Below, piece by piece: positions 31,151-62,782 of a stretch of 64,000 nt of DNA (its first letter is position 1; each line of letters starts with the position of its first letter). Source of the stretch: a virus. The position numbers and the translations under genes were made by a program. The DNA lies in the IMG/VR virus record IMGVR_UViG_3300031857_024884, positions 62,001 through 126,000 of that record; one strand, written 5' to 3'. A model generated the notes under the pieces. It saw nothing but the letters and a program-made list of their open reading frames with translations. It had not been told where the DNA came from and did no database searches.

Positions 31151-31202
31151 AATAATTATAAATCTATAATAATAACATTGATTTAAACAACTTAATATAT
31201 TA

Positions 31203-31226
31203 TATTTTCTCTTATAAAAGAAAATA
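31203..31226. repeat. Short inverted repeat in leader of 31232-32446
   Basis: An 8-bp stem TATTTTCT / AGAAAATA with an 8-base loop ends 5 bp before the ATG. It is AT-rich and weak; it could affect translation or be chance. Confidence 0.3.
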
Positions 31227-31231
31227 AAATT

Positions 31232-35994: not shown

Positions 35995-35999
35995 ATATT

Positions 36000-36683: not shown

Positions 36684-36686
36684 AAA

Positions 36687-37409: not shown

Positions 37410-37410
37410 C

Positions 37411-38097: not shown

Positions 38098-38101
38098 AAA
38101 A

Positions 38102-38722: not shown

Positions 38723-38723
38723 A

Positions 38724-39323: not shown

Positions 39324-39814
39324 TAAAAACTATAGAATATAAGGGGAATATATACCCCATTTTTCAATCTCAAGGAAACGCATCGCAATATGCAATACCA
39401 TTTGCAAAACAAGTTTGTTATGGTGAAGGATATGATATTGGTTGTATGAAAAAAGAATGGTCGTTTCCAAACTCAATACCAATAGATTTGAGTTTTAATG
39501 ACGGATTTCACGCTTTGAACTTACCTAAAAAGAATGTTGACTATATATTTTCAAGTCATTGTTTAGAACATATTAACGATTGGGTTAGTGTTATGAATTA
39601 TTGGTATGATAATTTAAAAGAAGGTGGAGTTCTTTTTTTGTATCTACCTGATTACTCTCAAGTATATTGGAGACCTTGGAATAACTTGAAACATAAAAAT
39701 GTATTCACTCCCCAAATTATTTATGATTATATGTTAGATAGAGGTTATAAAAACATATTTAAATCAGGGATTGATTTAAATAATTCTTTCATGATTTTTG
39801 GAGAAAAAATATAA
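39320..39814 (+). CDS. Methyltransferase-like protein (Methyltransf_11-like)
   Basis: A 165-codon gene. The ATG at 39320 is chosen because it overlaps the previous stop as ATGA; a TTG 21 bp upstream is an alternative. The Gly-rich motif I is short and degenerate (YGEGYDIGCMKKEW), while DYIFSSHCLEHINDW (about 73-87) and LKEGGVLFLYLPDYSQVYW are good methyltransferase motifs of the Methyltransf_11 class. It is the last of four methyltransferase-like genes. Five bases later begins a sulfotransferase gene fragment. Confidence 0.65.
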   Translation: MIKTIEYKGNIYPIFQSQGNASQYAIPFAKQVCYGEGYDIGCMKKEWSFPNSIPIDLSFNDGFHALNLPKKNVDYIFSSHCLEHINDWVSVMNYWYDNLKEGGVLFLYLPDYSQVYWRPWNNLKHKNVFTPQIIYDYMLDRGYKNIFKSGIDLNNSFMIFGEKI

Positions 39815-39819
39815 AATAA

Positions 39820-39864
39820 ATGCCAATTTTTAATAACGAAATAACATTTAATTTAAGGTTATAA
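39820..39864 (+). pseudogene. 5' fragment of a sulfotransferase gene
   Basis: An ATG at 39820 opens a 14-residue frame, MPIFNNEITFNLRL, then stop. Its first 31 bases match the first 31 bases of the sulfotransferase gene at 40759 with two mismatches (MPIFNDEITF there). The fragment lies 5 bp after the methyltransferase stop, exactly where a full gene would start. It is best explained as the 5' end left or duplicated when the segment with the SDR gene (39868-40662) was inserted. Confidence 0.7.
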
Positions 39865-39867
39865 AAC

Positions 39868-40662
39868 ATGAATAACTTAGTTATAGGAAACACATCTCAA
39901 CTATCTTATTATTTCGCTGATAACTATAGAAAAGTTTCCGGTAGAAACTTTAATTTTCAAGAATATGAAAATTCAAAATGGGATAGGGTTTTTATTTGTA
40001 TTGGCGAATCTAAAAAATTCATAGAAAATATAAATGAATATTATGAAGTTAATTTTACAATTACGTTAGAATTTATTGAATTCTTCATAATAAGAGCAAA
40101 TAAAGTAATTATTTATTCTACATGCGAACTTTGGAATAAAAATTCAGGTCAAATAAATTTGTCAACCCCTTTTAATTTTTACAATACCCCTTATATAGAA
40201 TCCAAATATAAAATTACTAAACATATCATTGATAATGGTAGTAGATACTCAAACGTAATAATATTATTTCCATTCAATTTCAATTCTATATATAGAGATA
40301 AGAATTTTTTATTTGGTAAAATATTCAATTCAATTATAAATAAAGAAACTATTGAAATTGGAGATACTTATTTTTATAGAGATATTATTCATCCTAAATT
40401 TGTTGTTAAAGAATCAATTAATTGCGAATCTCACAAAATTATTGGGTCAGGAAGATTAACGTTTGTAAATGATTTTATAAGAAATTTATACTCTAATTAT
40501 AATATGAATTATAAGGAATTTGTAAAAGAAGATAAAAAATTATTTAAAGAATACGAAAGGTTTGAAGAGTATTATCTTAAAAGTGAATTTTGTTTATATT
40601 ATTATAACGATTTATTAAATGACACTATAAATGATATTAATTTAAAATTAATTGATGATTAA
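39868..40662 (+). CDS. Extended-SDR NAD(P)-dependent epimerase/dehydratase-like protein
   Basis: A 264-residue protein of the nucleotide-sugar epimerase/dehydratase (extended SDR) type. The N-terminus NLVIGNTSQLSYYF is a degenerate dinucleotide-binding loop. VIIYSTCELWN (about 80-90) supplies the Ser/Thr, and YIESKYKITKHI holds the catalytic YxxxK (Y109, K113). FYRDIIHPKFVVKE resembles the region before the substrate loop. It probably alters a nucleotide sugar for the nearby transferases. It is flanked by a 31-bp direct repeat, suggesting insertion. Confidence 0.7.
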   Translation: MNNLVIGNTSQLSYYFADNYRKVSGRNFNFQEYENSKWDRVFICIGESKKFIENINEYYEVNFTITLEFIEFFIIRANKVIIYSTCELWNKNSGQINLSTPFNFYNTPYIESKYKITKHIIDNGSRYSNVIILFPFNFNSIYRDKNFLFGKIFNSIINKETIEIGDTYFYRDIIHPKFVVKESINCESHKIIGSGRLTFVNDFIRNLYSNYNMNYKEFVKEDKKLFKEYERFEEYYLKSEFCLYYYNDLLNDTINDINLKLIDD

Positions 40663-40758
40663 TAAGAATTCCCAAAATCACATCTCTAATTTAGAGGATA
40701 TACATATCATATATGGTTATAAAGATACCACAATAAATTTATAATTTTTTTTTGACTG

Positions 40759-40789
40759 ATGCCGATTTTTAATGACGAAATAACATTTA
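40759..40789. repeat. 31-bp direct repeat flanking the SDR gene
   Basis: Bases 40759-40789 and 39820-39850 differ at two positions. Both start at an ATG and together bracket a 908-bp segment containing the SDR gene. This looks like the trace of an insertion or of a recombination event between related gene starts. Confidence 0.75.
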
Positions 40790-41328
40790 TCCATATTCCA
40801 AAAACAGGTGGAGATTCTATTGAGAAATTTGTTAAGGATAACGGATATGATGTGAAATTTCGTTCTGTTAGAAAACAAGGTTATATAAATGGTCATAGTC
40901 CTCAACACTGTACCTATAGAGAACTTAAAGAGATGGGATTATTAACTAATAAAATTTTTACTGTAATTAGACCAAATATTGATAGAGTTATTTCAGAATA
41001 TTTTTATTTAAGAAAATATTCTAATGGTTTAGAACAATACGTTGAAAATTTTGACATTTTTTTAAATTATTTTTTAGATAAAAAAAATTCATTGATTTTC
41101 GATAATCACAATTTACACTATAAAGAATTTATTATTGGTGAAAACGGTGAAATTAGTAAAGATATTAAGATATTTAATTTCTTTGACGTTAAATCGATTG
41201 AGGAATATCTTGGTATGACTGGACTTTCAAATTTTCATTCTCTTAAACCTGATAATGAAAGGTATGAATTTAAATTAACTGAAGAACAAAAAAATAAAAT
41301 AAATAGATTTTATGATGAAAATAGTTAA
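40759..41328 (+). CDS. Sulfotransferase-like protein
   Basis: A 189-residue protein. FIHIPKTGGDSIEKFV (about 10-25) is the 5'-phosphosulfate-binding loop of PAPS-dependent sulfotransferases. TVIRPNIDRVISEYFYL (about 68-84) corresponds to the 3'-phosphate-binding region, though the canonical RNP is replaced by RPN. The C-terminus ends in FKLTEEQKNKINRFYDENS, like the last helix of Sulfotransfer_2 proteins. It would transfer sulfate from PAPS to a sugar hydroxyl. It lies upstream of the APS kinase gene that could supply PAPS. Gene overlap with the next frame is 17 bp. Confidence 0.75.
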   Translation: MPIFNDEITFIHIPKTGGDSIEKFVKDNGYDVKFRSVRKQGYINGHSPQHCTYRELKEMGLLTNKIFTVIRPNIDRVISEYFYLRKYSNGLEQYVENFDIFLNYFLDKKNSLIFDNHNLHYKEFIIGENGEISKDIKIFNFFDVKSIEEYLGMTGLSNFHSLKPDNERYEFKLTEEQKNKINRFYDENS

Positions 41329-41524
41329 TATACATATACCAAAAACAACGGGAGTATCTTTTTCCCACTCGTTAAAAGTTTTAAATTTAAATGTTAATAA
41401 CAAAAACAAATTTTATAGCGTGGATGATGTTTTATTAAAAAAAATAATTGATTTTCACGATGAAGATTATTCATTATATAATGAAATATTAAAAATATCA
41501 AATAATAGAAAAAATGATTATTAA
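41312..41524 (+). pseudogene. Internally deleted sulfotransferase gene
   Basis: A 70-residue frame with ATGs at 41312 and 41315. The start (IVNIHIPKTTGVSFSHSL) is a sulfotransferase 5'-phosphosulfate loop, and the end (IDFHDEDYSLYNEILKI) is the typical C-terminal helix of the same family. The roughly 100-150 residues between, including the 3'-phosphate-binding region, are missing. It still overlaps both neighbours, so it may be translated, but it can hardly be active. It is best read as a decayed third sulfotransferase copy. Confidence 0.6.
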
Positions 41525-42116
41525 TCATAATAAAAAATATGTGTTTGTTCATATACATAAAACAGCCGGAACATCTATAAGTATAAATATGTTAAAGTCA
41601 GGGGGGATAAAATATAAAAACAAACATTCATTTATAACTGAATTAGAAAATGAATATAAAAATTATTTTAAATTTTCTTTTGTTAGGAATCCTTGGGATA
41701 GATTAGTTTCTTGGTATAACATGTTTTTGAATTTAAAGGTTTCCAACGACTTTTCAAAATATGTTTTAAACAATTCAAAAAATTTTAGTGAATTTTTAAA
41801 TCTTACAGAAATTATTGTAGAAAAAATCGGACATGACAATCCAAATGGAGAGTATTACCCAAAATCAATATCATTTAATCAACTTGATTATCTCACAAAC
41901 AAAGAAGGAAATATAAATGTTGACTTCATTGGTAGGTACGAAAATATTAATGATGATTATAGAAACATTTCAACCAAACTAAATATTAGTTTAGACTTAG
42001 AGTGTAGGAATAAATTTAACCACGACCATTATAGAACTTACTATAGCGACTCAGATGCCGAAAAAGTTTATCATATGTATAAAAGAGATATTGATTATTT
42101 TGGATATGAGTTCTAA
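41514..42116 (+). CDS. Sulfotransferase (Sulfotransfer_2 type)
   Basis: A 200-residue protein with both PAPS sites intact: VFVHIHKTAGTSISINML (about 10-27) as the 5'-phosphosulfate loop and FSFVRNPWDRLVSWYNMF (about 54-71) as the 3'-phosphate-binding motif. FIGRYENINDDY (about 143-154) is the conserved central motif of the family, and the C-terminus is YSDSDAEKVYHMYKRDIDYF, typical of Golgi-type and bacterial carbohydrate sulfotransferases. It transfers sulfate from PAPS to a glycan. It lies 9 bp before the APS kinase gene. Confidence 0.88.
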   Translation: MIINHNKKYVFVHIHKTAGTSISINMLKSGGIKYKNKHSFITELENEYKNYFKFSFVRNPWDRLVSWYNMFLNLKVSNDFSKYVLNNSKNFSEFLNLTEIIVEKIGHDNPNGEYYPKSISFNQLDYLTNKEGNINVDFIGRYENINDDYRNISTKLNISLDLECRNKFNHDHYRTYYSDSDAEKVYHMYKRDIDYFGYEF

Positions 42117-42125
42117 TATTATTTA

Positions 42126-42707
42126 ATGGAAAATATATTTAAACAAACGTTATTAATTTCTAAATCGGATAGAGAAAAATTATTAAATCAAAAATCATTT
42201 GTTGTTTGGTTGACTGGTTTATCTGGCAGTGGTAAATCAACCATTGCAAATCAATTATCAATTTTATTACATGAAAAAGGAAAACTATCTTATATTTTAG
42301 ATGGTGATAATATTAGGTTAGGGATAAATAAAGATTTGGGGTTTTCAGATTCTGATAGAAAAGAAAACATTAGAAGAATTGCCGAAATTTCTAAATTAAT
42401 GAACGATGCCGGACTTATAGTTATAACCGCATTTATATCTCCATTTATTAATGAAAGAGAAGAATCCAAAAAAATAATTGGTGAAGAAAATTTTATAGAA
42501 GTTTTTGTAGATACTCCTTTAGATGTTTGTGAAAATAGAGACCCTAAAGGTCTTTATAAAAAGGCAAGGGCGGGTCAAATTAAAATGTTTACTGGTATTG
42601 ATTCTCCTTATGAAGAACCAATAAATCCAAGAATAAGAGTTAAAACTAAATCACACTCAATTGACGATTGCACACATTTTATTTATGATAAATTAAACTT
42701 GAAATAA
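42126..42707 (+). CDS. cysC: Adenylylsulfate (APS) kinase
   Basis: A 193-residue protein with WLTGLSGSGKSTIANQL (P-loop 31-38), LDGDNIRLGI (about 58-67), ISPF (104-107), DPKGLYKKARAG (139-150) and FTGIDSPYEEP (155-165). These are all hallmark motifs of CysC. It phosphorylates adenylylsulfate to PAPS, the universal sulfate donor. No ATP sulfurylase is in the window, so APS would come from the host. Its neighbours are two sulfotransferases and a DUF2061 protein, so the product is probably used for sulfation rather than sulfur assimilation. Confidence 0.95.
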   Translation: MENIFKQTLLISKSDREKLLNQKSFVVWLTGLSGSGKSTIANQLSILLHEKGKLSYILDGDNIRLGINKDLGFSDSDRKENIRRIAEISKLMNDAGLIVITAFISPFINEREESKKIIGEENFIEVFVDTPLDVCENRDPKGLYKKARAGQIKMFTGIDSPYEEPINPRIRVKTKSHSIDDCTHFIYDKLNLK

Positions 42708-42710
42708 TAA

Positions 42711-43142
42711 ATGGAAAATAAAATATATCAAATTAGATACAATACTAATTCAACTAAAGATAATGAAAGATGGAGATTACTTGAAAATGGTAACGAAATT
42801 TTAGTTTCTGACGTTATTATTGATGGAAATACGTACACTACAAAAGATTGGATTCTGGAAATAAATGATTATAAATGGCATATCAGTTGTAAAGGTGTTC
42901 TAAAATTAGAAAATAATGTTGCACATATTAAGACTGAAAAAAAAGAAAATACTATAGCAAGACATTTAGCAAAAACAATAACTTGGAGAATTGTTGGTAC
43001 TATTGATACGACATTAATAAGTTGGTTACTTACAGGTAATTTAAAAATAGGTTTAGCAATAGGAGGAACTGAGGTCATAACTAAAATGATTTTGTATTTT
43101 ATACACGAAAGAGTTTGGTATAAATTTGTTAAAACTAAATAA
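42711..43142 (+). CDS. DUF2061 membrane protein with N-terminal phage module
   Basis: A 143-residue protein. Residues 1-78 form a soluble module with YNTNSTKDNERWRLLENGNE and NDYKWHISCKGVLKL. Residues about 84-140 are DUF2061: ARHLAKTITWRIVGTIDTTL, then TGNLKIGLAIGGTEVITKMI and YFIHERVWYKF, with two likely membrane-spanning segments. From memory, DUF2061 genes often lie next to or are fused with APS kinase in bacteria, which points to a role in sulfate activation or transport. It starts 3 bp after cysC and overlaps the next gene by 1 bp. The molecular function is not known. Confidence 0.8.
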   Translation: MENKIYQIRYNTNSTKDNERWRLLENGNEILVSDVIIDGNTYTTKDWILEINDYKWHISCKGVLKLENNVAHIKTEKKENTIARHLAKTITWRIVGTIDTTLISWLLTGNLKIGLAIGGTEVITKMILYFIHERVWYKFVKTK

Positions 43143-43792
43143 TGTTAAATATTGTAACTGCACTATATAGATTTGAAAATTTAGAAACAATTTATAATTC
43201 TATTTTAATTAATGAAGACATCACTTGGCATATTTCTAAGTCAAATAAGAGAGAAGATATTGATTTAGAATTTATTAAAAATGACAAAAGAGTTAGATTA
43301 TACAATGTTGATTGTGAAGATACTGATGAAGTATCAAAAATAAATTACGCTCTATCAAAAATAAATAATGGTTATTTTTGTATATTAGATGACGATACTT
43401 TATTACATGAAAACATGTATATAAAGTATAAAGAATGTGAAGAAAATAATTTTAAAGGTATGTTAATTGGGGAGCAAATTAATCCTGACGGAAGATTAAG
43501 ATTAATTGCAAGTCCCCCAAAATTTAATTTTATTGATACCGGAAATGTGTTATCTCATTATGAATGTTTAAAAGAATGTAAAAAGCCAAATTTCTACCTT
43601 GAAGGGGTGAATAGAGAAGATTTTCTTTTTTGGAATTCAGTATATGAATTCTATGATAAAAAATGTGCAATATGGAATAACACTATTTCATATTATAATA
43701 AAATTTCTAAAGACGATAGATGGAAAAAAGAAATAAATAATAAAGAAGTTTTTAAAAAAATAAATAATTTAAAAAATAAACAAAAACTATAA
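43142..43792 (+). CDS. Putative GT-A glycosyltransferase
   Basis: A 216-residue protein: LNIVTALYRFENLETIYNSI at the start, NGYFCILDDDTLLHENMY (about 78-95) with the DDD metal/nucleotide motif of GT43-like and GT2-like enzymes, MLIGEQINPDGRLRLIA, and FIDTGNVLSHYECL (about 129-142) with YLEGVNREDFLFWNSV as the acceptor region. The Lys/Asn-rich C-terminal tail is disordered in appearance. It probably acts on the same glycan as the nearby sulfotransferases. Confidence 0.65.
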   Translation: MLNIVTALYRFENLETIYNSILINEDITWHISKSNKREDIDLEFIKNDKRVRLYNVDCEDTDEVSKINYALSKINNGYFCILDDDTLLHENMYIKYKECEENNFKGMLIGEQINPDGRLRLIASPPKFNFIDTGNVLSHYECLKECKKPNFYLEGVNREDFLFWNSVYEFYDKKCAIWNNTISYYNKISKDDRWKKEINNKEVFKKINNLKNKQKL

Positions 43793-44518
43793 ATGGAAAA
43801 AAGAAAAAAATCAACACAAAATACAGAACCACAAATTAAGTATAAAACAAAAAAAGAATTTATACTTGAGGTAATAAAGAAAAAATCAAAAGAAAAATTC
43901 TTATCCGAAAATCAAAAAAAATATTATAATCTTCTAACAAACAATCAAATAACAATTTGTTCAGGACCTGCGGGTGTTGGTAAAAGTTATATTGCGATGA
44001 AGGCGGCTTTAGATTTACTTGCCGACCCTAATAACAATTATGAAAAAATTATTATTGTTAGACCCGCAGTTGAGGCCGAAGAAAAACTTGGCTCGTTACC
44101 GGGAAATATGGAAGAAAAATTAGACCCATATATTTTCCCTTCTTATTACCTAATAAATAAAATTATCGGTAAAGAGGCTAGAGAAAAATTAAAAGAAAAT
44201 GACATTATTGAAGTATTTGCATTGGCATATATGAGAGGTATGAATATAGACAACTCAATTTTAATATTTGAAGAAGCTCAAAATTCTACCCCAAATCAAA
44301 TGAAACTTCTATTGACAAGAATTGGTTTTAATAGTAAATTTTTTATATCTGGAGATTTAGAACAAACCGACAGATATAAAGACAAAAAGCAAAGTGGATT
44401 ATGGGATGCTTTACAGAAATTTAAAAACATTGATGACGTTGGTGTTTTTGAGTTTGAAGATAAAGATATTGTTAGAAATCCACTTATTAGCAAAATATTA
44501 AAACAATACGAAGAATGA
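43793..44518 (+). CDS. PhoH-like ATPase
   Basis: A 241-residue protein with SGPAGVGKSYIAMKAAL (Walker A 58-65), IIIVRPAVEAEEKLGSLPGN (about 86-105), MRGMNIDNSILIFEEAQN (Walker B 156-164), and TRIGFNSKFFISGDLEQTD (about 175-193). This is the PhoH family of RNA-associated P-loop ATPases, very common in T4-like phages. An extra 40-residue Lys-rich N-terminus precedes the domain. It overlaps the next gene by 4 bp. The precise function in phage infection is unknown. Confidence 0.92.
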   Translation: MEKRKKSTQNTEPQIKYKTKKEFILEVIKKKSKEKFLSENQKKYYNLLTNNQITICSGPAGVGKSYIAMKAALDLLADPNNNYEKIIIVRPAVEAEEKLGSLPGNMEEKLDPYIFPSYYLINKIIGKEAREKLKENDIIEVFALAYMRGMNIDNSILIFEEAQNSTPNQMKLLLTRIGFNSKFFISGDLEQTDRYKDKKQSGLWDALQKFKNIDDVGVFEFEDKDIVRNPLISKILKQYEE

Positions 44519-45111
44519 GAATAGGTATTGAAGTTAATGGGGTTTTACGAAATACCATTGATAAAATTACTCAAACTTATCAAAAATTTTTAATTGATAA
44601 AACTGAAGGTATTGAAGACAACGGTGAATTTAAATATGAAATGATTTTACCTGTAGAGTCCTTAAATTTATCCGACCACTTAAAATTTCAAAATGAAGAA
44701 GAATTATACTCATTTCTTTATGAAGAATTTCCAATGGAAATATTTGGTCACGCACAATCAACAGAATATAACACATTTAATGATTTAAATGAAGTTTATT
44801 TAAAATTAAGGGAAGACCACGAATTAATTATTGTGTCAGATGAGATTGGTAAATCAAAACCATCAACTCTTTTTTTCTTATCTAAGTTTGGTTGTCAATT
44901 TGAAAAAGTAAAATTTTATAGTAATTATACAATTAATTCAATGTGGGATGAAATTGACGTTTTACTTACCGCAAATCCCGCCTTATTATTAGAATATCCG
45001 TCAGATAAAATTGTGATAAAATTTGATACGGTTTATAATAAACATTCTGAAAGTGATTTATCAATTAGTACGATAAAAGAGCTTGAGGAAAAATTAAAAC
45101 AAATAATATAA
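44515..45111 (+). CDS. HAD-like protein with altered nucleophile motif
   Basis: A 198-residue protein. The start MRIGIEVNGVLRNTI occupies the position of HAD motif I (normally DxDGVL), but the two Asp residues are replaced by Glu and Asn. LIIVSDEIGKSKPSTLFFLSK (motif II/III-like: Ser and Lys) and VLLTANPALLLE (motif IV-like) follow. The fold therefore resembles phage and bacterial 5'-nucleotidases or polynucleotide-phosphatase-type HAD proteins, yet phosphatase activity is doubtful. It overlaps PhoH by 4 bp and the next gene by 1 bp. Confidence 0.6.
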   Translation: MRIGIEVNGVLRNTIDKITQTYQKFLIDKTEGIEDNGEFKYEMILPVESLNLSDHLKFQNEEELYSFLYEEFPMEIFGHAQSTEYNTFNDLNEVYLKLREDHELIIVSDEIGKSKPSTLFFLSKFGCQFEKVKFYSNYTINSMWDEIDVLLTANPALLLEYPSDKIVIKFDTVYNKHSESDLSISTIKELEEKLKQII

Positions 45112-45392
45112 TGTTAAAAATTTTAGGAGAACACTATTACTTTGATTTAGATAAGATTGAAGAATATATAAATGTTGACACACCATTGGATGAATTTTCG
45201 GGAGAAACTGCACCTCAAAACACAATCAGTGTTGTAAGATATGATATGGTTAAATTATTAACTGAAACAATTTTAACTGAAGACGCTGAGACTGACGAAA
45301 CTCTCGGTTTAAAATCAAGTAATGGATTATCAATGCCATTTAAATTAGCATTTAACAGTCTTTTAAATAAAAAATTAATAAACAAATACTAA
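45111..45392 (+). CDS. Small hypothetical protein
   Basis: A 93-residue acidic protein, MLKILGEHYYFDLDKIEEYI at the start, SVVRYDMVKLLTETILTEDA in the middle, and LPFKLAFNSLL-like hydrophobic helix near the end (MPFKLAFNSLLNKKL). It overlaps the HAD-like gene by 1 bp and is followed after 1 bp by a glycosyltransferase-like gene. No family is recognised. Confidence 0.6.
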   Translation: MLKILGEHYYFDLDKIEEYINVDTPLDEFSGETAPQNTISVVRYDMVKLLTETILTEDAETDETLGLKSSNGLSMPFKLAFNSLLNKKLINKY

Positions 45393-45393
45393 T

Positions 45394-46455
45394 ATGACAC
45401 AAGAGCAAATTAAAAAGTTAGAGGGTTCAATTGATAACCTAAAACAAAAAAAATCAAGAATTTATCTTTTAGTTCAAGATACTAAAGGTAATGCTAAAGC
45501 GTCTATTTCTTACATTTACAATTTAGGAATGGCGTTACTGAGTGGAGGATTTAATCCGATTATGTTACATGAAAAACCAGACTACGTTGGGGTTGCTGGA
45601 TGGTTAGGTAAAGAATATATGGAAAAACTACCCCACAGAGCAATAGAGGGTCAAAATTTAGAAGTATCACCCGAAGATTTTATTATAATTCCTGAATTAT
45701 TTGGATTTGTAATGCCCCAAATTACAAAACTTCCTTGTGGGAAAGTGGTTTTATCTCAAGCGTATGACCATATTTTTGAAACATTACAGCCAGGACAAAC
45801 TTGGACTCAATTGGGTTTTTATAAATGTATTACCACATCTGAAAAACAAAAAGAATATATTGAGACAATTATGAGAGGTGTTTCTTTTGATATTTTACCT
45901 CCTTTTATTTCTGAAAATTTTGAAACTACAAAATATCCCGCAAAACCTGTAATCGCAATTCATTCAAGAGAACAAAGAGATACTGCAAATTTTATTAAAT
46001 CATTTTACGTTAAATACCCTCAGTATAGATGGATTACTTTTAGAGATATGAGAGGTTTAACAGAGAAAGAATTTGCAAACGCTTTTAAAGATTGTTTTTT
46101 ATCAATATGGATTGATGAGACAAGTTCTTATGGAACATTCCCACTAGAATCTATGAAATCAGGAGTTCCTGTTTTAGGATTAGTACCTAGTATGGTGCCT
46201 CAATGGATGAATGAAGATAATGGTCTTTGGATAAATAACAAACTTCAATTAATTGATTTTACATCTCAATTTTTACAAAATTGGTTGGAGGATAATGTTA
46301 GTGAAACTCTTTATGAAGGTATGAAAAAAACAATTTCAGAATTACTAACTAAAGATGATTTTTATAAAAAAACCTTATCTATTTTTGAAGAATTTATTAA
46401 TACAAGATTAGTATCTTTTGAAGAACAATTAAATAAACTAGAAACAATTGAATAA
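45394..46455 (+). CDS. GT4-like glycosyltransferase
   Basis: A 353-residue GT-B type protein. The N-terminal half has SRIYLLVQDTKGNAKASISY and FIIIPELFGFVMPQI; the second half has PVIAIHSREQRDTANFIKSF, RWITFRDMRGLTEKEFANAF (donor-site region) and SSYGTFPLESMKSGVPVLGL (about 249-268), where the Glu in PLESM corresponds to the GT4 E-x7-E region. It resembles phage homologues in which the donor motif is shortened. It precedes a GT2 enzyme by 1 bp. Confidence 0.65.
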   Translation: MTQEQIKKLEGSIDNLKQKKSRIYLLVQDTKGNAKASISYIYNLGMALLSGGFNPIMLHEKPDYVGVAGWLGKEYMEKLPHRAIEGQNLEVSPEDFIIIPELFGFVMPQITKLPCGKVVLSQAYDHIFETLQPGQTWTQLGFYKCITTSEKQKEYIETIMRGVSFDILPPFISENFETTKYPAKPVIAIHSREQRDTANFIKSFYVKYPQYRWITFRDMRGLTEKEFANAFKDCFLSIWIDETSSYGTFPLESMKSGVPVLGLVPSMVPQWMNEDNGLWINNKLQLIDFTSQFLQNWLEDNVSETLYEGMKKTISELLTKDDFYKKTLSIFEEFINTRLVSFEEQLNKLETIE

Positions 46456-46456
46456 C

Positions 46457-47260
46457 ATGGAAAAATTTGACGTATCGGTAATATTACCTATTAAATCTAT
46501 CGGAGCAAGAGGATTTGAAGAATATTTCACAAAATGTATCGAATCATTAAAGGTACAAAAAGTAAAAATAAATGAATTAATAATTGTTCATACAGACGAA
46601 ACTTCTTTGGTTGAGTATCTAAATGGATTTGATTTTGGAGACCTTAATGTTGTAAAACATTCTTGGACTAAAGAACCTAATTTTTCAGAACAAATAAACT
46701 ATGGAGTTAGAATTTCAAAATCTAAATGGATTTCTATTTTTGAATTTGACGATGAATACTCTAACATATGGTTTAAATCAGTTAAAAAATATGAAGAAGT
46801 TTATCCTGAAGTTGATGCCTTTCTACCAATAGTTGTTGATACTGACGAAAAAGGTAGTTTTGCGGGTTTTACAAATGAAGCAACATTCGCTCTTAATATT
46901 TCTTCTGAAATGGGAATTTTAAGTAATGATACTTTACAAACATATCAAAATTTTCAACCATCAGGTATGGTGATTAAAAAATCATCTTTCACTGATTTTG
47001 GAGGATTGAAAGGTTCGTTTAAATTAACTTTTGGTTATGAAATGTTTTTAAGATTAACTCACAATTCGTTAAAAATTATGACAATACCTAAGATTGGTTA
47101 TAAACATACTAACCTTAGAGAAGGGTCTATATTTTGGAATTACAAAAATGGAGATTCTATTTTGTCTGACGATGAGGTACGTTTTTGGATTGAATCGGCT
47201 AAAAAAGAATATTTCTTTATTAATGATAGAGCCATAAAATATGAATCCGAAGTTAATTAA
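46457..47260 (+). CDS. GT2 family glycosyltransferase
   Basis: A 267-residue protein; the ATG at 46457 is chosen over a TTG 9 bp upstream because it avoids overlap. It has VSVILPIKSIGARGFEEYF at the start, LIIVHTDETSLVEYL, ISIFEFDDEYSNIWF (about 85-99) with the DD metal-binding pair, FQPSGMVIKKSSF, and FGYEMFLRLTHNSLKI near the end. It is a standard GT-A family 2 layout. It overlaps the late sigma-factor gene by 1 bp, so the glycan genes and late regulator share an operon. Confidence 0.74.
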   Translation: MEKFDVSVILPIKSIGARGFEEYFTKCIESLKVQKVKINELIIVHTDETSLVEYLNGFDFGDLNVVKHSWTKEPNFSEQINYGVRISKSKWISIFEFDDEYSNIWFKSVKKYEEVYPEVDAFLPIVVDTDEKGSFAGFTNEATFALNISSEMGILSNDTLQTYQNFQPSGMVIKKSSFTDFGGLKGSFKLTFGYEMFLRLTHNSLKIMTIPKIGYKHTNLREGSIFWNYKNGDSILSDDEVRFWIESAKKEYFFINDRAIKYESEVN

Positions 47261-55812: not shown

Positions 55813-56112
55813 ATGAAAACAATTAGATTAACAGAAAGACAACTAAGTGAATTAGTTCAAAAAGTAATAAAGGAGTCTGAAGACGAGGCTCCTTATGAAA
55901 AAGGTCCGAGAGGACAAAGAGCCGCAAGGTCAAGAGCAGATTACGAGGCAACACCAAAAGAAGATGAAATAAAAACATTATTTGGAAAATACCAAGATGA
56001 CATACCTCCAATTGTTATTAGATACCTAAGAAAGATTGGTAGAAAGACATTAACAAAACGTTTATTAGACCTTAATTTAATTGATAAAGAAACTGTAAAT
56101 GAAAAAGATTAA
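55813..56112 (+). CDS. Small protein with putative capsid-targeting tag
   Basis: A 99-residue protein whose first 21 residues, MKTIRLTERQLSELVQKVIK plus E, are an amphipathic helix ending in IKE. That matches the prohead-protease cleavage pattern (L/I)xE used by T4-like phages. After it comes a charged region (GPRGQRAARSRADYEATPKE) and a helical C-terminus (IPPIVIRYLRKIGRKTLTKR). The same tag starts the next gene. It may be packaged inside the head and injected with DNA. It overlaps the next gene by 14 bp. Confidence 0.6.
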   Translation: MKTIRLTERQLSELVQKVIKESEDEAPYEKGPRGQRAARSRADYEATPKEDEIKTLFGKYQDDIPPIVIRYLRKIGRKTLTKRLLDLNLIDKETVNEKD

Positions 56113-56578
56113 TATCACAGAAAAGCAATTACAGAGATTAGTTGGTAAACTAGTTAATGAAACATCAAAGACCTATGATGGTATAACTAATTATATGTTC
56201 TTTTCTAATTTAGAGCAAATTAAAAGACAATGTGAAGAGTTATTAAGTTTAGACCCAAAAATGGTTGAGGATATTTTAAATAACGGACATGATTGGGCGG
56301 ATGACCATATAACAGTTTCTAAAGAAAATATGAGTCAAGTGTATGACTTTATGATTAATGAAACTAAAAACTCAGGAGATATGTGGTCCGATGATGAAGT
56401 TATGATGGAAGGTCGTAAAAAAACAGGAACAAAACTATGTGCAAGAGGTAAGTCGGCAGCAAAATCTAAATTTAAAGTTTACCCTTCAGCATACGCAAAT
56501 GGTTACGCAGTCCAAGTATGTAAAGGAAAACAACCAGGAACTGACGGAAAAAAACGATGTTCCCCACCTTATTGTTAA
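56099..56578 (+). CDS. Tagged protein with cationic PSAYA-type C-terminal motif
   Basis: A 159-residue protein. Residues 1-19, MKKINITEKQLQRLVGKLV, are followed by NE, making an amphipathic tag like that of the previous gene. Residues 25-100 are acidic and helical. The C-terminal part (about 108-159) has GRKKTGTKLCARGKSAAKSK and FKVYPSAYANGYAVQVCKG, a short basic Cys motif I recall from phage and large-virus proteins, ending CSPPYC. The basic end could bind nucleic acid. A terminator follows 7 bp after the stop. Confidence 0.65.
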   Translation: MKKINITEKQLQRLVGKLVNETSKTYDGITNYMFFSNLEQIKRQCEELLSLDPKMVEDILNNGHDWADDHITVSKENMSQVYDFMINETKNSGDMWSDDEVMMEGRKKTGTKLCARGKSAAKSKFKVYPSAYANGYAVQVCKGKQPGTDGKKRCSPPYC

Positions 56579-56584
56579 ATAAAG

Positions 56585-56612
56585 AATCCCACAAAAGTGG
56601 GATTTTTTTTTG
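56585..56612 (+). terminator. Terminator after the tail/small-gene block
   Basis: An 8-bp perfect stem AATCCCAC / GTGGGATT (56585-56592 with 56597-56604) has a 4-base A loop and a T-run through 56611. Confidence 0.92.
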
Positions 56613-56640
56613 GCCAATTAAAAAAAAGTTCTTATCTTTG
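56609..56640 (+). promoter_or_regulatory. Bacteroidetes-type host promoter
   Basis: TTTG at 56609-56612 and TATCTTTG at 56633-56640 are separated by 20 bp. This fits the Bacteroidetes housekeeping pattern TTTG-N19-21-TAnnTTTG. It follows a terminator directly and precedes the ATG at 56645, so it probably starts an early, host-polymerase-transcribed unit. Confidence 0.75.
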
Positions 56641-56644
56641 TGGT

Positions 56645-57073
56645 ATGAATACAAACAACCTAAAACACAAAACAATTAGGTTTTTTCAAAAAGTTGGTTT
56701 AAAAATATTACGGGCGAGTAATCAATCCAACGAACCAAAACATTCAGAATTCGAGTATGAGTGTTTGGCAATTTGTAAAAACCTTATTCATAAAGAGAAA
56801 TCAAAATTATTAATCTCCCCAATTTCAGGGAAACGTTACATTAAGAGTGAAGATAATCAAATCTTTGTTATTATGGATAACGGAAAGATTACTATCGTAA
56901 ATCATCATTACAGTTACAATATTGACCTTACATATAAGGCTTATGATAGGTTACTCAAAACATTCGATAACGAGGTTGAGATTAGAAGACAAGTTATGGA
57001 AAACGAGATTAGGTCAAACGTAAAACATTCATTATCTAACATTTATAAAAATATCACAAATGACAAAGTTTAA
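56645..57073 (+). CDS. Hypothetical early protein
   Basis: A 142-residue basic protein. The ATG at 56645 is chosen because a start 48 bp upstream (56597) would lie within the terminator and promoter. It has MNTNNLKHKTIRFFQKVGLK at the start, SPISGKRYIKSEDNQIFVIM (beta hairpin) and ITIVNHHYSYNIDLTYKAYD in the middle, and a helical C-terminus (QVMENEIRSNVKHSLSNIY). No family is known to me. Probably expressed early from the host-type promoter and co-transcribed with 57060-57317. Confidence 0.65.
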   Translation: MNTNNLKHKTIRFFQKVGLKILRASNQSNEPKHSEFEYECLAICKNLIHKEKSKLLISPISGKRYIKSEDNQIFVIMDNGKITIVNHHYSYNIDLTYKAYDRLLKTFDNEVEIRRQVMENEIRSNVKHSLSNIYKNITNDKV

Positions 57074-57317
57074 AGGCGTATTTTGGATGGGATTTACAGT
57101 GGTTATGTTACCAATCGCATTAGTATTAATGATGATTACATTAACGTTAATAACCCCAAAAAAAGAAAATTCTACTGAAGTTAAAACATATTACGATACA
57201 GTTAAGGTAAAACAAAAAGTAATTGTTTACGACACCGTTAAAGTAATTAAAGAAATTAAAAAGAAAAAAGAGGTTAAAATAGAGGAAGAACCGATAATTA
57301 ATGATACTCTTAAATAA
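57060..57317 (+). CDS. Small single-span membrane protein
   Basis: An 85-residue protein with one strong hydrophobic segment (FWMGFTVVMLPIALVLMMIT, about residues 8-27, extending to LTLI) followed by a charged tail of repeats: YYDTVKVKQKVIVYDTVKVI, then KEIKKKKEVKIEEE. The YDTVKV unit occurs twice. It overlaps the previous gene by 14 bp and converges with 57310-58290 (8-bp overlap). It may sit in the host inner membrane; the function is unknown. Confidence 0.62.
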   Translation: MTKFKGVFWMGFTVVMLPIALVLMMITLTLITPKKENSTEVKTYYDTVKVKQKVIVYDTVKVIKEIKKKKEVKIEEEPIINDTLK

Positions 57318-58290
57318 GATATTTAATTAATCTTTCTAATTGAGCCTCGGTTATTTTAATTGTGTTCTCATTTCTTGGTTTATAGGAAACAAGTTTAGGT
57401 TTGTTTCCCGTACCTGATTTAGGGTTGGATTTTTCAGCCCTTCTTTTTTGTTGGCAAGCAGAACGTTTCTCAGAGTCAGACATTTTACCCGCAACACCTG
57501 CCGCTCTACATTTAGGATATGCCTTATCACTCGCCTCAGGTCTTCCGCAAGGGGGATGTTTACCATTTTCATCTTTACGACATATATTTACCCAAGGACC
57601 TTTTGGTTGTTTACTACCTTTAGGTTTCTTTTTTGTTCCAAACCAAACTGCCAAATCCTCATATAAAACATTTTTATTTCTATCTAACCATTCTTCTAAC
57701 GATTCTGTTTTTTTCTTTTGTTTTTTACCACCAGCATCGTGTGTTGGTATATGATATGAACCGTCTTTTCCTTTTTCCCACACTCCGACAGTTCTTAATA
57801 CATTATCTTTCATTTTTGATTTTTTAGCCTTTTTATTATGGTTATGAGAAACGTCATTACTAAATGGAGCGGTTTCATTTTTCCATTTTTTTAAACCCAA
57901 TTCAATAGGTCCATTATAAAGTCCAGCGCTTACACTTGTATTTGATTCCGATAAATCAATAACGTCTTTATTTTTTTTAACTTTTTGAACGACCTTTTTA
58001 TAAGGTGTATTCACAAATTTATTATTTACTTCGTTATTAAAATCTTTATTTCTAATTTTTTTAGATGTAGATTCTTTTTTTTTAATATTTTTATTATTCT
58101 TACTCATCTTTCCGTCTAAAGAATCATAGTTATTTTCGGCGTTAATATAGTTAGATACGGGTTTAAAAAAAGGGTCATTACTATTATCTAACCATTTTCT
58201 TAATCCAGGTCTTAATGGGGGATTATAAGAACCTCTTGAATGAAATGTGTATGTTACCTCATTTATTTTATCAATTCTATTGTCTTTCAT
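57310..58290 (-). CDS. Basic protein with C-terminal tag and CGR/PKCR motif
   Basis: A 326-residue Lys-rich protein. Two similar segments, GSYNPPLRPGLRKWLDNSND (about 15-34) and GLYNGPIELGLKKWKNETAP (about 117-136), appear to be internal repeats. The middle (about 195-300) has EEWLDRNKNVLYEDLAVWFG and GPWVNICRKDENGKHPPCGR with YPKCRAAGVAGKMSDSEKRS, a Cys-containing basic motif seen in T4-like phage and large-virus proteins. The last 16 residues, TIKITEAQLERLIKYLI, copy the tag found at the N-termini of 55813-56112 and 56099-56578. It is likely a nucleic-acid-binding head-internal protein. Confidence 0.62.
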   Translation of the reverse strand: MKDNRIDKINEVTYTFHSRGSYNPPLRPGLRKWLDNSNDPFFKPVSNYINAENNYDSLDGKMSKNNKNIKKKESTSKKIRNKDFNNEVNNKFVNTPYKKVVQKVKKNKDVIDLSESNTSVSAGLYNGPIELGLKKWKNETAPFSNDVSHNHNKKAKKSKMKDNVLRTVGVWEKGKDGSYHIPTHDAGGKKQKKKTESLEEWLDRNKNVLYEDLAVWFGTKKKPKGSKQPKGPWVNICRKDENGKHPPCGRPEASDKAYPKCRAAGVAGKMSDSEKRSACQQKRRAEKSNPKSGTGNKPKLVSYKPRNENTIKITEAQLERLIKYLI

Positions 58291-58306
58291 AATAAAAATT
58301 CTTATA

Positions 58307-58316
58307 TATAAATATC
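58307..58316 (-). promoter_or_regulatory. Promoter-like box upstream of 57310-58290
   Basis: On the minus strand it reads GATATTTATA and continues TATAAG. The 15-base string GATATTTATATATAA is identical to that upstream of 58545-59681. It is 16 bp before the ATG at 58290. Confidence 0.6.
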
Positions 58317-58329
58317 AAACAATATCAAA

Positions 58330-58548
58330 ATGGAAGAGCAAAAACTATTTGGAAAATTATTTAATACGATACCTTTATACGATGAAAATCATCTTGATAC
58401 TATACTATCAACGATGGATAAAAAAACCGCCTCATATATGTTAATACAGGCGGTTAAATATGCTTATCATCAGGGAGTCTTTAGTCTTGGAGAATCCGAA
58501 GTAATATCAAAATCAATTAGGACATATACCAAAGAAGAAATTGTTTAA
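58330..58548 (+). CDS. Small helical hypothetical protein
   Basis: A 72-residue protein (MEEQKLFGKLFNTIPLYDEN; YMLIQAVKYAYHQGVFSLGE) predicted to be all helical. It converges with 58545-59681 with a 4-bp overlap. It is short but has clear coding character and its own ATG in the divergent intergenic region with 57310-58290. No family recognised. Confidence 0.58.
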   Translation: MEEQKLFGKLFNTIPLYDENHLDTILSTMDKKTASYMLIQAVKYAYHQGVFSLGESEVISKSIRTYTKEEIV

Positions 58549-59681
58549 GGTTGATTAAATTGGTCAAATTCCATACTAGCCAATCCTGAGCCTCTACCAG
58601 TACTTCTAATTGGTTTAGATTTTGGGATTAATTTAACTTTTAAATCAGAGTCATATAAATGTTCATTATTAAAAATATTTGGTGTATTTTTATCGGGTTC
58701 TAAGTCTAAATAATAACCATTTCCACCATGGTAACTTGGAAACAATGAGTATAAAACCCCTCCTTCTTTTATCCTTACTACGGTAATAACCCCTGAAGAA
58801 GGATATTCGTTCCTCGTTTGAGGAATAGTTCCCCTGTCTACAAATACATTTGGAATTGTAACTTCGGAATTTTTATTTTTATCTATAAAAACATATTTAT
58901 ACTTACCCCCTTCAACATATTCTTCGGATGTTTGATTAGGATTTGAAACTCCTTGATTTGTTTTCCCATAATCGGCAGGAACATTACTAGGTGATATTAA
59001 CTTTAAAGGTTCTGTATCTTTAACAGGAGAATCCTGTCTAACTACTTTAGATAATATTCCCCAAGTGTTAGGACCAACAATACCATCAGGTTGTTTTGTT
59101 CTTGGACTAATAAGATTATTTTTAGTTTGGAAACTCATTACCGCTTTTTTTGTCATATCATCAAATACCGATGTTAAACTAACATCTTCACCAGCATCTA
59201 ATAATTTAGTTTGGATTGTTTTAACTAAAGGTCCTTTATCTCCTTTTCTTAAATAATATCCTTTTTGAGTTAATTGTTCAATTGACGTTGGGAAGGTTCT
59301 TTTTTGAACTGGATTTGTCAGACCCGTATTTGTAATTGTTTTTGTAAGAGTTGCTATTTGGGCGTCAGTTGGTATTTTCTTATTTGTTACTGCAAACTTA
59401 TATTGACTTATAATTGATGGGTCTTTTGCGTAAGTCTCACCTTCTTGTCTATTTTTATCATTACTTAATCTGACTTTTGTATCACTAGTAGGGTTACCAA
59501 ATCTTACCGCCTTTTTAGTTTGTTTATTAAAAACAACCGATGGTTGGTCACCTGTTCCAACAACTAAAACTTCCGTATTAGGATTATATTGTTCGCTTAA
59601 ATACTGTCTTTTTGTTGCATCCTCATGAAGACCCAAAATTCTTTTCTTTTCATCTTCCGTTATTATAAATAAGTTTTTCAT
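58545..59681 (-). CDS. Tagged protein with peptidoglycan-binding domain
   Basis: A 378-residue protein. It opens with MKNLFIITEDEKKRILGLHE (1-20), an amphipathic stretch ending in LHE, a good match for a T4-like prohead-protease site. A PG_binding_1 domain follows (about 135-215): YYLRKGDKGPLVKTIQTKLL, VFDDMTKKAVMSFQTKNNL and DGIVGPNTWGIL. The C-terminal part is beta-rich (VEGGKYKYVFIDKNKNSEVT, then GVLYSLFPSYHGGNGYYLDL). No lytic enzyme motif was found. The combination suggests a head- or tail-borne protein that meets the cell wall during DNA entry; alternatively it is a cell-wall-binding endolysin partner. Confidence 0.7.
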   Translation of the reverse strand: MKNLFIITEDEKKRILGLHEDATKRQYLSEQYNPNTEVLVVGTGDQPSVVFNKQTKKAVRFGNPTSDTKVRLSNDKNRQEGETYAKDPSIISQYKFAVTNKKIPTDAQIATLTKTITNTGLTNPVQKRTFPTSIEQLTQKGYYLRKGDKGPLVKTIQTKLLDAGEDVSLTSVFDDMTKKAVMSFQTKNNLISPRTKQPDGIVGPNTWGILSKVVRQDSPVKDTEPLKLISPSNVPADYGKTNQGVSNPNQTSEEYVEGGKYKYVFIDKNKNSEVTIPNVFVDRGTIPQTRNEYPSSGVITVVRIKEGGVLYSLFPSYHGGNGYYLDLEPDKNTPNIFNNEHLYDSDLKVKLIPKSKPIRSTGRGSGLASMEFDQFNQP

Positions 59682-59725: not shown

Positions 59726-60097
59726 ATGAAAACCGACAAAGAAAAATTTGAAAATGTTACCAATTTAATCCTAAAAAAAGAATATCCTTTTATTAAAAGA
59801 GTTGAGATTGTAAGAGTTAGAGAAATACTTAGAGAATTACAATCAGATGTATTAATTGTTTTAGATATTGATTTTATCGAGGAGCATGTTGATATAGATT
59901 GTTATGATAATATGTTAAATGACGACTCAATATTTTTTAGTTTGTGGTCTTTTAATCATTGTTCAGATATTAAAATGAATGAGAAGAAAATGAAAGATGA
60001 CCTATACGACCTTTATAAAATGATTATTACCCCTAAAGAAACTTTATATTCTTACAACATTAGCATAAGTGTTATCTCATATAATAATCTTATTTGA
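59726..60097 (+). CDS. Hypothetical acidic protein
   Basis: A 123-residue protein: NVTNLILKKEYPFIKRVEIV, REILRELQSDVLIVLDIDFI and YDLYKMIITPKETLYSYNIS. Alternating helices and beta strands suggest a small alpha/beta domain of unknown family. The 3' end overlaps the convergent HNH gene by 21 bp, and it has its own box 8 bp upstream. Confidence 0.6.
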   Translation: MKTDKEKFENVTNLILKKEYPFIKRVEIVRVREILRELQSDVLIVLDIDFIEEHVDIDCYDNMLNDDSIFFSLWSFNHCSDIKMNEKKMKDDLYDLYKMIITPKETLYSYNISISVISYNNLI

Positions 60098-60766
60098 TTT
60101 TCTAATATTTTCTTCTCCCCACATTGGTTGGAGATTAGAAAGTGACCAACATTTCATAAATTCAGAATCACCGATTTCCTTTATATTAAAGACCGAAATA
60201 GGTCTTAAATGGTCAACATGCCATTCCCCATAATTATCCCACGTCATACCGTCTTTAAATTGATTTTCTAAGTGAGATATAAGTTCTTCAGGAGTATATT
60301 TTAATATATCAAAATAATGTCCGTTTTTATCTACATTATTTTCTTTTAAAACTTGGTATATTGCAGTCCTAAAATTAGAGATTAGTTTATAGAGGGGGTC
60401 GTTTGCTTTACGAGTTCTTTCATAGTTACGTTTAACCTCACGAATTTTGTCTATGTTTTTTTCTCGATATTCTTTTAGATAATCTTTTCTATGTTCTTTA
60501 TTTTGTTCATACCACTTGTCATAATTTTTTCTTTTTCTTTCTTTGGTTTCAGGTTTAGATTCGTATTTTTGCATTGCGACTTTACGACCACCAATAAATC
60601 TTCTACCTGAAGAACCAATTTTAACACCGTTTTCTTTTAATATTCTTATTATAACTTGTATACATATGCCCGTTTTTTGAGATATAGTCTGAGAACCTAT
60701 TAATTCTTCATTATACATTTTAAGTATATTTGACAATTCTTCTTCAGTGGGAATATATTTTTTCAT
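60077..60766 (-). CDS. HNH endonuclease
   Basis: A 229-residue protein from the ATG at 60766, chosen over 60802 because the promoter-like box at 60771-60780 lies between. An N-terminal helix-turn-helix-like part (TISQKTGICIQVIIRILKEN) is followed by a Lys/Arg-rich linker. The C-terminal HNH nuclease reads DNYGEWHVDHLRPISVFNI (about 176-194) and CWSLSNLQPMWGEENIRKSN (about 207-226). It resembles free-standing phage homing endonucleases. It sits next to the capsid gene, as homing endonucleases often sit beside conserved targets. Confidence 0.8.
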   Translation of the reverse strand: MKKYIPTEEELSNILKMYNEELIGSQTISQKTGICIQVIIRILKENGVKIGSSGRRFIGGRKVAMQKYESKPETKERKRKNYDKWYEQNKEHRKDYLKEYREKNIDKIREVKRNYERTRKANDPLYKLISNFRTAIYQVLKENNVDKNGHYFDILKYTPEELISHLENQFKDGMTWDNYGEWHVDHLRPISVFNIKEIGDSEFMKCWSLSNLQPMWGEENIRKSNKIII

Positions 60767-60770
60767 ATAA

Positions 60771-60780
60771 TATAAATATA
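60771..60780 (-). promoter_or_regulatory. Promoter-like box upstream of HNH gene
   Basis: On the minus strand it reads TATATTTATA, 4 bp before the ATG at 60766 and just downstream of the capsid terminator. Confidence 0.45.
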
Positions 60781-60821
60781 GAGTATAAGAACAAAAAATC
60801 AATTGTTTTATTTAAATAATA

Positions 60822-60871: not shown

Positions 60872-62782
60872 TTATCTCAATTCTCTTAAATCGAATGTAC
60901 GAACTCCGTCAACGGTAATTCTTGCGTAGAACCTGTTATTTACCATTTTTTTCGCGTATCTGGTCATAATACCTTTGATAGGCGTAAAGTTGAATGGATT
61001 GTACATTGTAGGTGTTAATTGTAGAGGTACGTACGGTGCGTAGATGTAACCTGTATCAAGTAACGATGTACCTTTATGTCCAATCAAAATTTGATTTGGT
61101 GGGAAATAAGGGTCACGGTATACTTGGTAACGACCTGCTAAAGTACCTACTCTTTCGATACCCATGTTGTATTGGTCTTGCTCTGGTGAAGCGTTAGATA
61201 CGTGGAAGTATTCTAAGTCATCGAAGATTGCAGAAACCTCACTTGATACAACAATCCAGTTAGCTCCACCACGAAGAGTTGACTTGTGAATTTGAGCAGA
61301 TAATTGGTTGATAGTTGTAATCAATGTTTGATTCCAATCTTTTTGAGTGTAAGATGTAGTTTGTTTAATTCTTCTCCATCCGTTATAATCCCAACGTAAG
61401 TTCCAAGCCGCACCTTTACGTAAGTCACGTAAGATTTCACGGTCAATTTCAGCCGCAACTTGTTCAGACAATAAAGCCGTTAATTCAGCCTCAGCATCAA
61501 TGTTATGGAATGCTGCAACGTCTTGAGCAAGTTCTGGTGACCATTGTGCTCTTAACTTTCTTTCAGTCACAGAAACTGTAACAGAATCAAGTTCAAAAGA
61601 AACCTCACCGATTTTGTCTTCAAACTCAAGTTCTTCATAACGTCTGTAAACAGCCGTGAAAGTAGAACCTGTTAATAAATCTTGGTCAACAACTGTAATA
61701 CCTGTGTAACCATCTAAAGATGTAGAATCACAATCAGCACAAGCGGGACAAGAAAGGTCAACTTCTAATAAAATACAACCATTTGCATTACAGATATTAT
61801 TAAATGAACCTCCGTTACCGTCAACTGGCCAAGTAGTTTGATAAGTACTACCGTAATCAACGATACCTTTACCATATTGTTGTGTTACAACACGGAATAA
61901 TAATGGTTTTGGAGCGCTTCCTTCACTAGTTAAATTAGTAATACAACCTCCTGTTGCGAAAGCGTCAAGTGAACCGTTATAGAAAATTTTCAAATCAGAT
62001 AAGAAAGTTTCTGTATCCATTTCGTTACCATCAGGTCCAATTAATTTACCAGCACCTGCCGCACTATTGAAACCACATAATTTAACGATTAATTTTCTAA
62101 CATTTTGGTCTTTTAAATCAACAGAAGAATCTGCTAAAGTAACTAAATCACTGTTTTCCCAAACAACAATCGGACCGTTAATAGTCATAGCTGACCATCT
62201 ACCTTTAGAGTAGTCAAATAAACCTGGAGGGTCTAAAGCCGCCTCATTTCCTTCATAGAATAAATCATAAAGATTTTTCTTGTAAGTTGGGTTGTAAGAA
62301 CCAGGTGAATAAGCCGGATTTGGGTCGTAACCCCCTGCTAATGCTGCTCCGTCTGTTGCTGGTCTATTTGGTGAACCTACTGGTGCGTAATGTGCTCCTG
62401 ATTCTCCCGCTAAAGGACCTACCGCCCCATAATTACCATTATTATAACCTTGAATCTTAGGTACGAAGTAGAACAATTTACCGATAGGTAAGTTCATAGC
62501 TTGTACAGATACGATGTCATTCGCTAATAATTTAGAGAATACACGTCTAACGATAGGGAATACAACTGTTTCAAATGCTCCGTTAGAACCTTCTGAAGTT
62601 GCTTCGTTTATCAAAAATGACGCTTGGTTTTCATATAACTGCGCCACGTTCTCTTTTAGGTGACCTTTAAGGCCTTCTAGGAATCCTAATTTATCCCATT
62701 TTGTGATTGTGTCTTCTTTGATAACTTTTAAATGTTTTAAACCAATGTTACCAACAAGACCTGATTCTAATAATGCTCCCAT
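60872..62782 (-). CDS. Major capsid protein (gp23-like)
   Basis: A 636-residue protein of the T4 gp23 family. The diagnostic block reads AFETVVFPIVRRVFSKLLAN (about 69-88), then DIVSVQAMNLPIGKLFYFVP. Residues 54-60, ASFLINE, are followed by ATSEG, giving a prohead-protease site (INE) at about the position where T4 gp23 is cut (after residue 65). The mature protein would start at residue 61. The centre contains a Cys-rich insertion (CPACADCDS, near 345) and the C-terminal third is strongly conserved (NNRFYARITVDGVRTFDLRE). It forms the hexamers of the phage head. Confidence 0.95.
   Translation of the reverse strand: MGALLESGLVGNIGLKHLKVIKEDTITKWDKLGFLEGLKGHLKENVAQLYENQASFLINEATSEGSNGAFETVVFPIVRRVFSKLLANDIVSVQAMNLPIGKLFYFVPKIQGYNNGNYGAVGPLAGESGAHYAPVGSPNRPATDGAALAGGYDPNPAYSPGSYNPTYKKNLYDLFYEGNEAALDPPGLFDYSKGRWSAMTINGPIVVWENSDLVTLADSSVDLKDQNVRKLIVKLCGFNSAAGAGKLIGPDGNEMDTETFLSDLKIFYNGSLDAFATGGCITNLTSEGSAPKPLLFRVVTQQYGKGIVDYGSTYQTTWPVDGNGGSFNNICNANGCILLEVDLSCPACADCDSTSLDGYTGITVVDQDLLTGSTFTAVYRRYEELEFEDKIGEVSFELDSVTVSVTERKLRAQWSPELAQDVAAFHNIDAEAELTALLSEQVAAEIDREILRDLRKGAAWNLRWDYNGWRRIKQTTSYTQKDWNQTLITTINQLSAQIHKSTLRGGANWIVVSSEVSAIFDDLEYFHVSNASPEQDQYNMGIERVGTLAGRYQVYRDPYFPPNQILIGHKGTSLLDTGYIYAPYVPLQLTPTMYNPFNFTPIKGIMTRYAKKMVNNRFYARITVDGVRTFDLRELR

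Follow-up and report, generated by a model that had tools for sequence, protein, structure and literature searches.

In phage T4, capsid-targeting sequences (CTS) are N-terminal propeptides of 10-19 residues, and the protease gp21 cleaves after L/I-x-E (PMC9026906). An IPIII tag with Asp at P1 is blocked for cutting but not for targeting, the Alt protein is cleaved at both ends, C terminus included, and the CTS has already been proposed as a means by which T4-like phages vary the cargo of the head (PMC9026906). Separately, bS21-encoding Bacteroidetes phages of freshwater lakes were described by Chen et al. 2022 (PMC9723584). In the part of that article available to us, these phages carry bS21 on the opposite strand within a terminase-portal-protease-capsid block, as does the genome studied here; tags, propeptides and head cargo, the subject of the present analysis, are not reported in that part.

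The window analyzed here is a stretch of 64,000 nucleotides, positions 62001-126000 within a virus record of 203,171 bp. Judged by gene order, the source phage is a member of a T4-like, bS21-encoding, Bacteroidetes-infecting lake clade. The gene for bS21 (ribosomal protein S21, PF01165; record 130015-130251, plus strand) lies between the minus-strand protease and portal genes, and the defining arrangement of the clade, an opposite-strand bS21 inside the terminase/portal/protease/capsid region, is present. The family is uncultured, and relatives are very common, with at least 600 matching stretches in an IMG/VR capsid scan. A gp21-like protease, which the first-pass annotation had named as a gene to look for, is present as Peptidase_S77 (Table 1), and the same domain was found in all eight long capsid relatives (8/8). 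The INE noted earlier at the matching site of the capsid protein is also real: the cut site LINE/A (LINE/ATS), E included, is invariant across 81/81 relatives.

Table 1. Tagged proteins and head genes. Positions are those of the window unless marked as record positions; a slash marks a proposed cleavage point.
Feature	Position	Strand	Tag, site or match
Candidate C-terminal tag-like end	27282-27749	+	DLKITEDVKRINNLIKKII; sequence only, weak
Candidate short tag on 135-aa protein	28044-28451	+	MKLYNIAKSLILE/V; sequence only, weak
Class-A tagged protein, 99 aa	55813-56112	+	tag MKTIRLTERQLSELVQKVIKE/ stops at E21 (codon 55873-55875); ORF, PSSM
Class-A tagged protein, 159 aa	56099-56578	+	tag MKKINITEKQLQRLVGKLVNE/ stops at E21 (56159-56161)
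Polyprotein-like head-adjacent protein, 326 aa	57310-58290	-	sites KINE11/V, DLSE115/S, VLYE211/DLAVWFG
Class-A copy, C-terminal in the 57310-58290 protein	57313-57363	-	TIKITEAQLERLIKYLI
Class-C tagged protein, 378 aa	58545-59681	-	tag MKNLFIITEDEKKRILGLHEDATKRQYLSE/ stops at E30 (59594-59592)
Major capsid protein gp23 (PF07068)	60872-62782	-	Gp23 E=3.2e-73; propeptide site FLINE60/A (62605-62603)
Peptidase_S77 (gp21-type) prohead protease	record 128762-129484	-	E=8.6e-23; ~2.8 kb past window edge
Portal_T4 (gp20) gene	record 130987-132813	-	just past window
Terminase	record 134929-136692		

Four neighboring proteins had been picked out earlier as sharing an amphipathic tag; all are open reading frames at the coordinates given for them, and their quoted sequences are correct. 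In L017 and G012, homologs of the 99-aa protein also have this cargo behind a class-A tag. After its tag, the 159-aa protein continues with a helical domain, candidate sites MINE88/T and VMME104/G and a basic Cys domain (phrog_27331); the basic Cys domain of the 57310 protein is phrog_23735, and the 58545 protein contains a peptidoglycan-binding domain (PF01471, E=1.2e-10). The N terminus of the 58545 protein is indeed a tag, but it belongs to class C and not, as its supposed relation to the others implied, to class A. LHE20 was considered as its cut site and dropped for YLSE30/Q, the better fit given the class-C statistics. A single-sequence structure model of this protein was uninformative (pLDDT 31).

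Several other genes of the region deserve mention. The protein at 60077-60802, in the stretch that separates the tagged genes from the capsid gene, looks by eye like an HNH endonuclease (HVDHLRPIS...NLQPMW), and no Pfam HNH match was found for it. A large structural-looking protein at 23552-26392 has a papain-family peptidase domain at its C terminus (PF00112, E=2.6e-6). The island at 29129-47260 resembles glycosyltransferases, methyltransferases and sulfotransferase-like genes by sequence; an APS kinase is encoded there at 42126-42707 (E=4e-68), as is a PhoH-like protein at 43793.

The tags are not limited to 55813-59681 or to a single tag sequence. A class-A position-specific scoring matrix (PSSM) was run at a threshold of at least 12 bits over 3,907 proteins, with shuffled copies as decoys, and gave 277 matches against 0 among the shuffled copies. 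These comprised 246 N-terminal, 5 C-terminal and 26 internal matches, about half of the last being upstream-start calls or fusions. Other module classes are B (MKIIITESQY), C (LITEEEKSRILGMH...L.E) and D (NEEIxRIKxLMGL..(I/L)xE). The search for further tagged genes that the first-pass annotation had suggested was productive in this genome (13 by PSSM and several others by eye), and class profiles gave 13 tagged proteins in G000, 47 in G001, 38 each in G002 and G009 and 21 in the fragment G012; large relatives thus carry about 40 tagged genes apiece. Because the profiles overlap and were iterated, these per-genome totals are safer than the class labels. A DNA pattern for class A matched 115 stretches of IMG/VR; of 84,980 bacterial and archaeal genomes, none contained it. 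No match was found by tblastn of the tags against INPHARED isolates, but queries of 23-30 aa may fall below its sensitivity, and we therefore do not claim that the tags are absent from those isolates. No report of these tags or tag strings was found in the literature, with subscription journals mostly outside the coverage. A second tag class, RMQxLAGI[I/L]xE (L258-L337), belongs to immuto-like T4-like phages from several lineages and is very common in IMG/VR; it occurs also in a cultured phage, Flavobacterium phage immuto, which has MKKQILSEQFRRMQKLAGIITE/S at 111675 and a similar tag at 25061.

The class-A tags stop precisely at the motif of the T4 protease, [I/L/V]-x-E, as the earlier remark that several tags end in (I/L/V)xE had anticipated. 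Among 219 non-redundant class-A tags, 204 had E at P1 and not one had D, while the background ratio of E to D was 12566:11934 (1.05:1); P3 was I, V or L in 202 of the 219, P2 was diverse, and conservation fell to background directly after the terminal E. Most of the 15 tags without E at P1 have [ILV]xE a few residues away, consistent with register shifts. Part of the set was collected by the class-A DNA pattern, which does not include P1, P2 or P1', and the 55 tags collected without it behave alike (94% E). In class C, [ILVM]xE lies no more than 22 residues from the core in 24/27 members. Against a reading of these boundaries as cleavage sites, some class-B members (MKYLITESQL...) have no obvious second [ILV]xE, though their ITE fits the motif, and the motif itself is short and common. 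Counted genome-wide, it is enriched only modestly over the first 40 residues (z 2.4-4.5) and not at all in G012, a result kept out of the main evidence, and the per-protein excess of [ILV]xE does not cleanly single out head proteins.

The 159-aa protein belongs to a family (the 56099 family) of 30 homologs with swapped tags. A single conserved cargo (YMFFSNLEQ...) stands behind 27 different tags, which fall into four or more sequence types (for example MKKINITEKQLQRLVGKLVNE, MRITESQLNNLVKKIVNE, MNLNSIIKKVLKE and MKTDLVSRVVKRVLRE) and all end in [ILVM]xE; when 24 members are aligned, E21 alone is invariant within the tag region. From these alignments, tags are swapped between genomes on the same cargo exactly at the E. 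The AlphaFold model of the protein predicts a helix at residues 8-23 and pLDDT below 50 at 21-26 and 93-110, placing both E21 and E104 (candidate MME104/G) in low-confidence linkers. Foldseek with this model found nothing in the PDB; its other matches were weak and all to uncharacterized proteins of uncultured phages.

The 57310 family (48 homologs) reads as polyprotein-like, with a putative [I/L/V/M]xE site ahead of each domain. Upstream of the DL[AG]VWFG motif, P1 is E in 30/30 distinct sequences and P3 is I, L or M in 28/30. The N termini of the family are short helices ending in ILRE/ATSD or alike, similar to the capsid site LINE/ATS, and an INE/AT(S/G)-type sequence is common to the capsid protein and the N terminus of the family. 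The sites before the C-terminal helices are non-canonical, with K or R at P3, which counts against a CTS interpretation. In G001, the DLAVWFG domain comes straight after the tag MIIDDTIKKILRE, and other relatives, among them L024, L047, L048 and L087, have a class-A tag between a 57310-type protein and an extra C-terminal domain. As these relatives have a further domain after the tag, the window's C-terminal copy represents one state of a modular protein. That copy had been raised as an argument against simple cleavage, but the objection is weak, since T4 Alt is also cut C-terminally (PMC9026906) and relatives carry internal tags.

Proximity of the tags to head genes in relatives, which the first-pass annotation expected, holds in part: the 56099 and 57310 families adjoin the capsid gene, but most tagged cargo lies far away, which counts against capsid targeting. 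Where relatives extend 7 kb or more past the capsid gene in the downstream direction, the 57310 family is present in 25/25 and the 56099 family in 20/25. Peptidase_S77 was found in 7/9 class-A contigs of at least 100 kb and in 4/4 contigs with the immuto-like tag class (RMQxLAGIITE), and overall in 11/13 tag contigs of at least 100 kb compared with 1/8 random-pattern contigs (pooled p=0.002). The tag contigs are mutually related and not independent samples, so this value is indicative only. Five tag contigs without S77 (G012, G042, G044, G046 and G047) were examined closely as possible counter-examples and rejected, since each proved to be a fragment, either from this lineage or from immuto-like T4-like phages.

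Most tagged cargo has no known domain. Tagged peptidoglycan-binding proteins occur at 58545 in the window, at record positions 158672 and 160227 and at 112660 in G001; elsewhere the cargo includes a phage lysozyme (G002 256758) and, in G009 (28908; L248:8908-10692), polyphosphate kinase 2 fused to a phage lysozyme. The protein at record 160227-161321 (L007:15227-16318) is tagged and combines peptidoglycan-binding and TseH-like (PF25218) domains, and its paralog at 158672 has the first 31 residues in common with a different C-terminal part. Two further proteins of the record combine several domains. One (L006:15527-17863; record 141024-143363) has nucleotidyltransferase-like, peptidase M23, peptidoglycan-binding and GH19-like regions in a single chain. 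The other (L004:17870-19387; record 56870-58390) is an Fe/Mn superoxide dismutase (PF00081, PF02777) with a C-terminal domain that by eye is like part of the 127468 protein; its N terminus, MKSILEKTSVLLEQ, may be a tag.

The likeness to T4 capsid targeting put forward at the outset was supported in sequence-level tests (S77, a boundary with E and never D, tag exchange and capsid-adjacent families), and at that level it is demonstrated that the tags and the protease exist, where exactly the tags end, that genomes exchange them and that the synteny holds. We consider it likely that the tags act as T4-type capsid-targeting propeptides and that the set has greatly expanded into a genome-wide modular system, with docking, cleavage, packaging and ejection inferred. 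Since the tags end exactly at the site of the phage's own head protease, the tagged proteins are probably loaded into the head and delivered with the DNA. The amphipathic helix would dock the tagged protein on the scaffold core during head assembly, and docking there would enclose the protein in the prohead; the product of 125878-127380 is a candidate for the scaffold. The gp21-type serine protease would then cleave after the tag-terminal [I/L/V]-x-E and release the cargo inside the head. The head-adjacent 56099 and 57310 proteins may also be cut between domains, which would yield small, basic peptides with Cys, probably internal proteins that associate with DNA. The remaining tagged proteins, among them those with peptidoglycan-binding, lysozyme or PPK2 domains and a large number of unknowns, would leave with the DNA at infection.

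A helix of this kind could instead dock proteins on the host membrane, the baseplate or a phage-induced compartment, with the terminal E merely the end of the helix. Class A and the short tags are strongly amphipathic, and membrane-targeting helices can look similar; the LTE start is also compatible with a helix N-cap. A helix end would tolerate D, K, Q or N, however, whereas P1 is E over D by 204:0 with P2 free, the same site recurs where folded domains meet and again in the capsid protein, and the tags accompany S77-type heads; docking of this sort seems to us quite unlikely. We also judge it very improbable that the tags are common only through duplication and divergence of small accessory genes, without present function: paralogous runs do occur, such as the MKYLITESQLDRVIFRYLD copies in G009, but cargo is unrelated across tags, the same cargo bears unrelated tags in different genomes, and conservation is restricted to the tag.

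A narrower possibility is that only the head-adjacent families of 55813-59681 enter the head, and that in the scattered tagged genes a similar helix serves another purpose. Synteny with the capsid gene has been established for the 56099 and 57310 families only, and class B is often without a second site, both of which would fit. We nevertheless think this unlikely, as the boundary rule seen in the head-adjacent genes holds for the scattered class-A and class-C genes too.

Capsid targeting of the T4 kind, if it operates here, allows a broader proposal that we offer tentatively and would not yet call probable: the head of this clade may be a general protein-delivery vehicle, in which a freely swapped cassette (h-x-E, helix, h-x-E), trimmed by the protease at N-terminal, internal or C-terminal positions, loads tens of proteins per genome for injection, and the cargo islands would be a fast-changing arsenal against host defenses and the envelope. 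If the capsid-targeting reading is true, a tag ending in [I/L/V]-x-E together with an S77 protease would predict which hypothetical proteins, very numerous in this lake phage group, itself one of the commonest, are packaged and injected, turning unexplained genes into testable injected effectors. It would also supply ready-made delivery tags beyond those of T4 and mean that T4-like phages diversify head cargo by exchange of short modules.

Among known systems, the head proteins of phiKZ and SPN3US, with propeptides cut at S/A-x-E, resemble this one in their many ejected proteins, gp21-related protease and redundant propeptide sites, but those propeptides are mostly longer than 100 residues, whereas the tags here are short, the site is [I/L/V]xE and there is no phiKZ-type head. 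Three features by which a CTS is recognized are present at the sequence level: a short N-terminal propeptide common to otherwise unrelated proteins, an end at a gp21 site with Glu and not Asp at P1, and an S77 prohead protease with a T4-type head in the genome. By eye and without an alignment, the tags have no clear homology to the T4 IPIII tag, and design alone is similar. The CTS of IPI, IPII, IPIII and Alt (PMC9026906, PMC5694885) are likewise short N-terminal propeptides ending in (L/I)-x-E on unrelated internal proteins, in a system with a gp21 protease, a gp23/gp20 head and hypervariable cargo. The tags here differ in being mostly 13-30 residues long and of several sequence classes, on about 40 genes per large genome compared with few in T4, and in lying also at internal and C-terminal positions with polyprotein-like cargo; packaging has not been shown here. 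Because variation of CTS cargo has already been stated for T4-like phages (PMC9026906), we regard the tags as a variant of the CTS and not as a new category.
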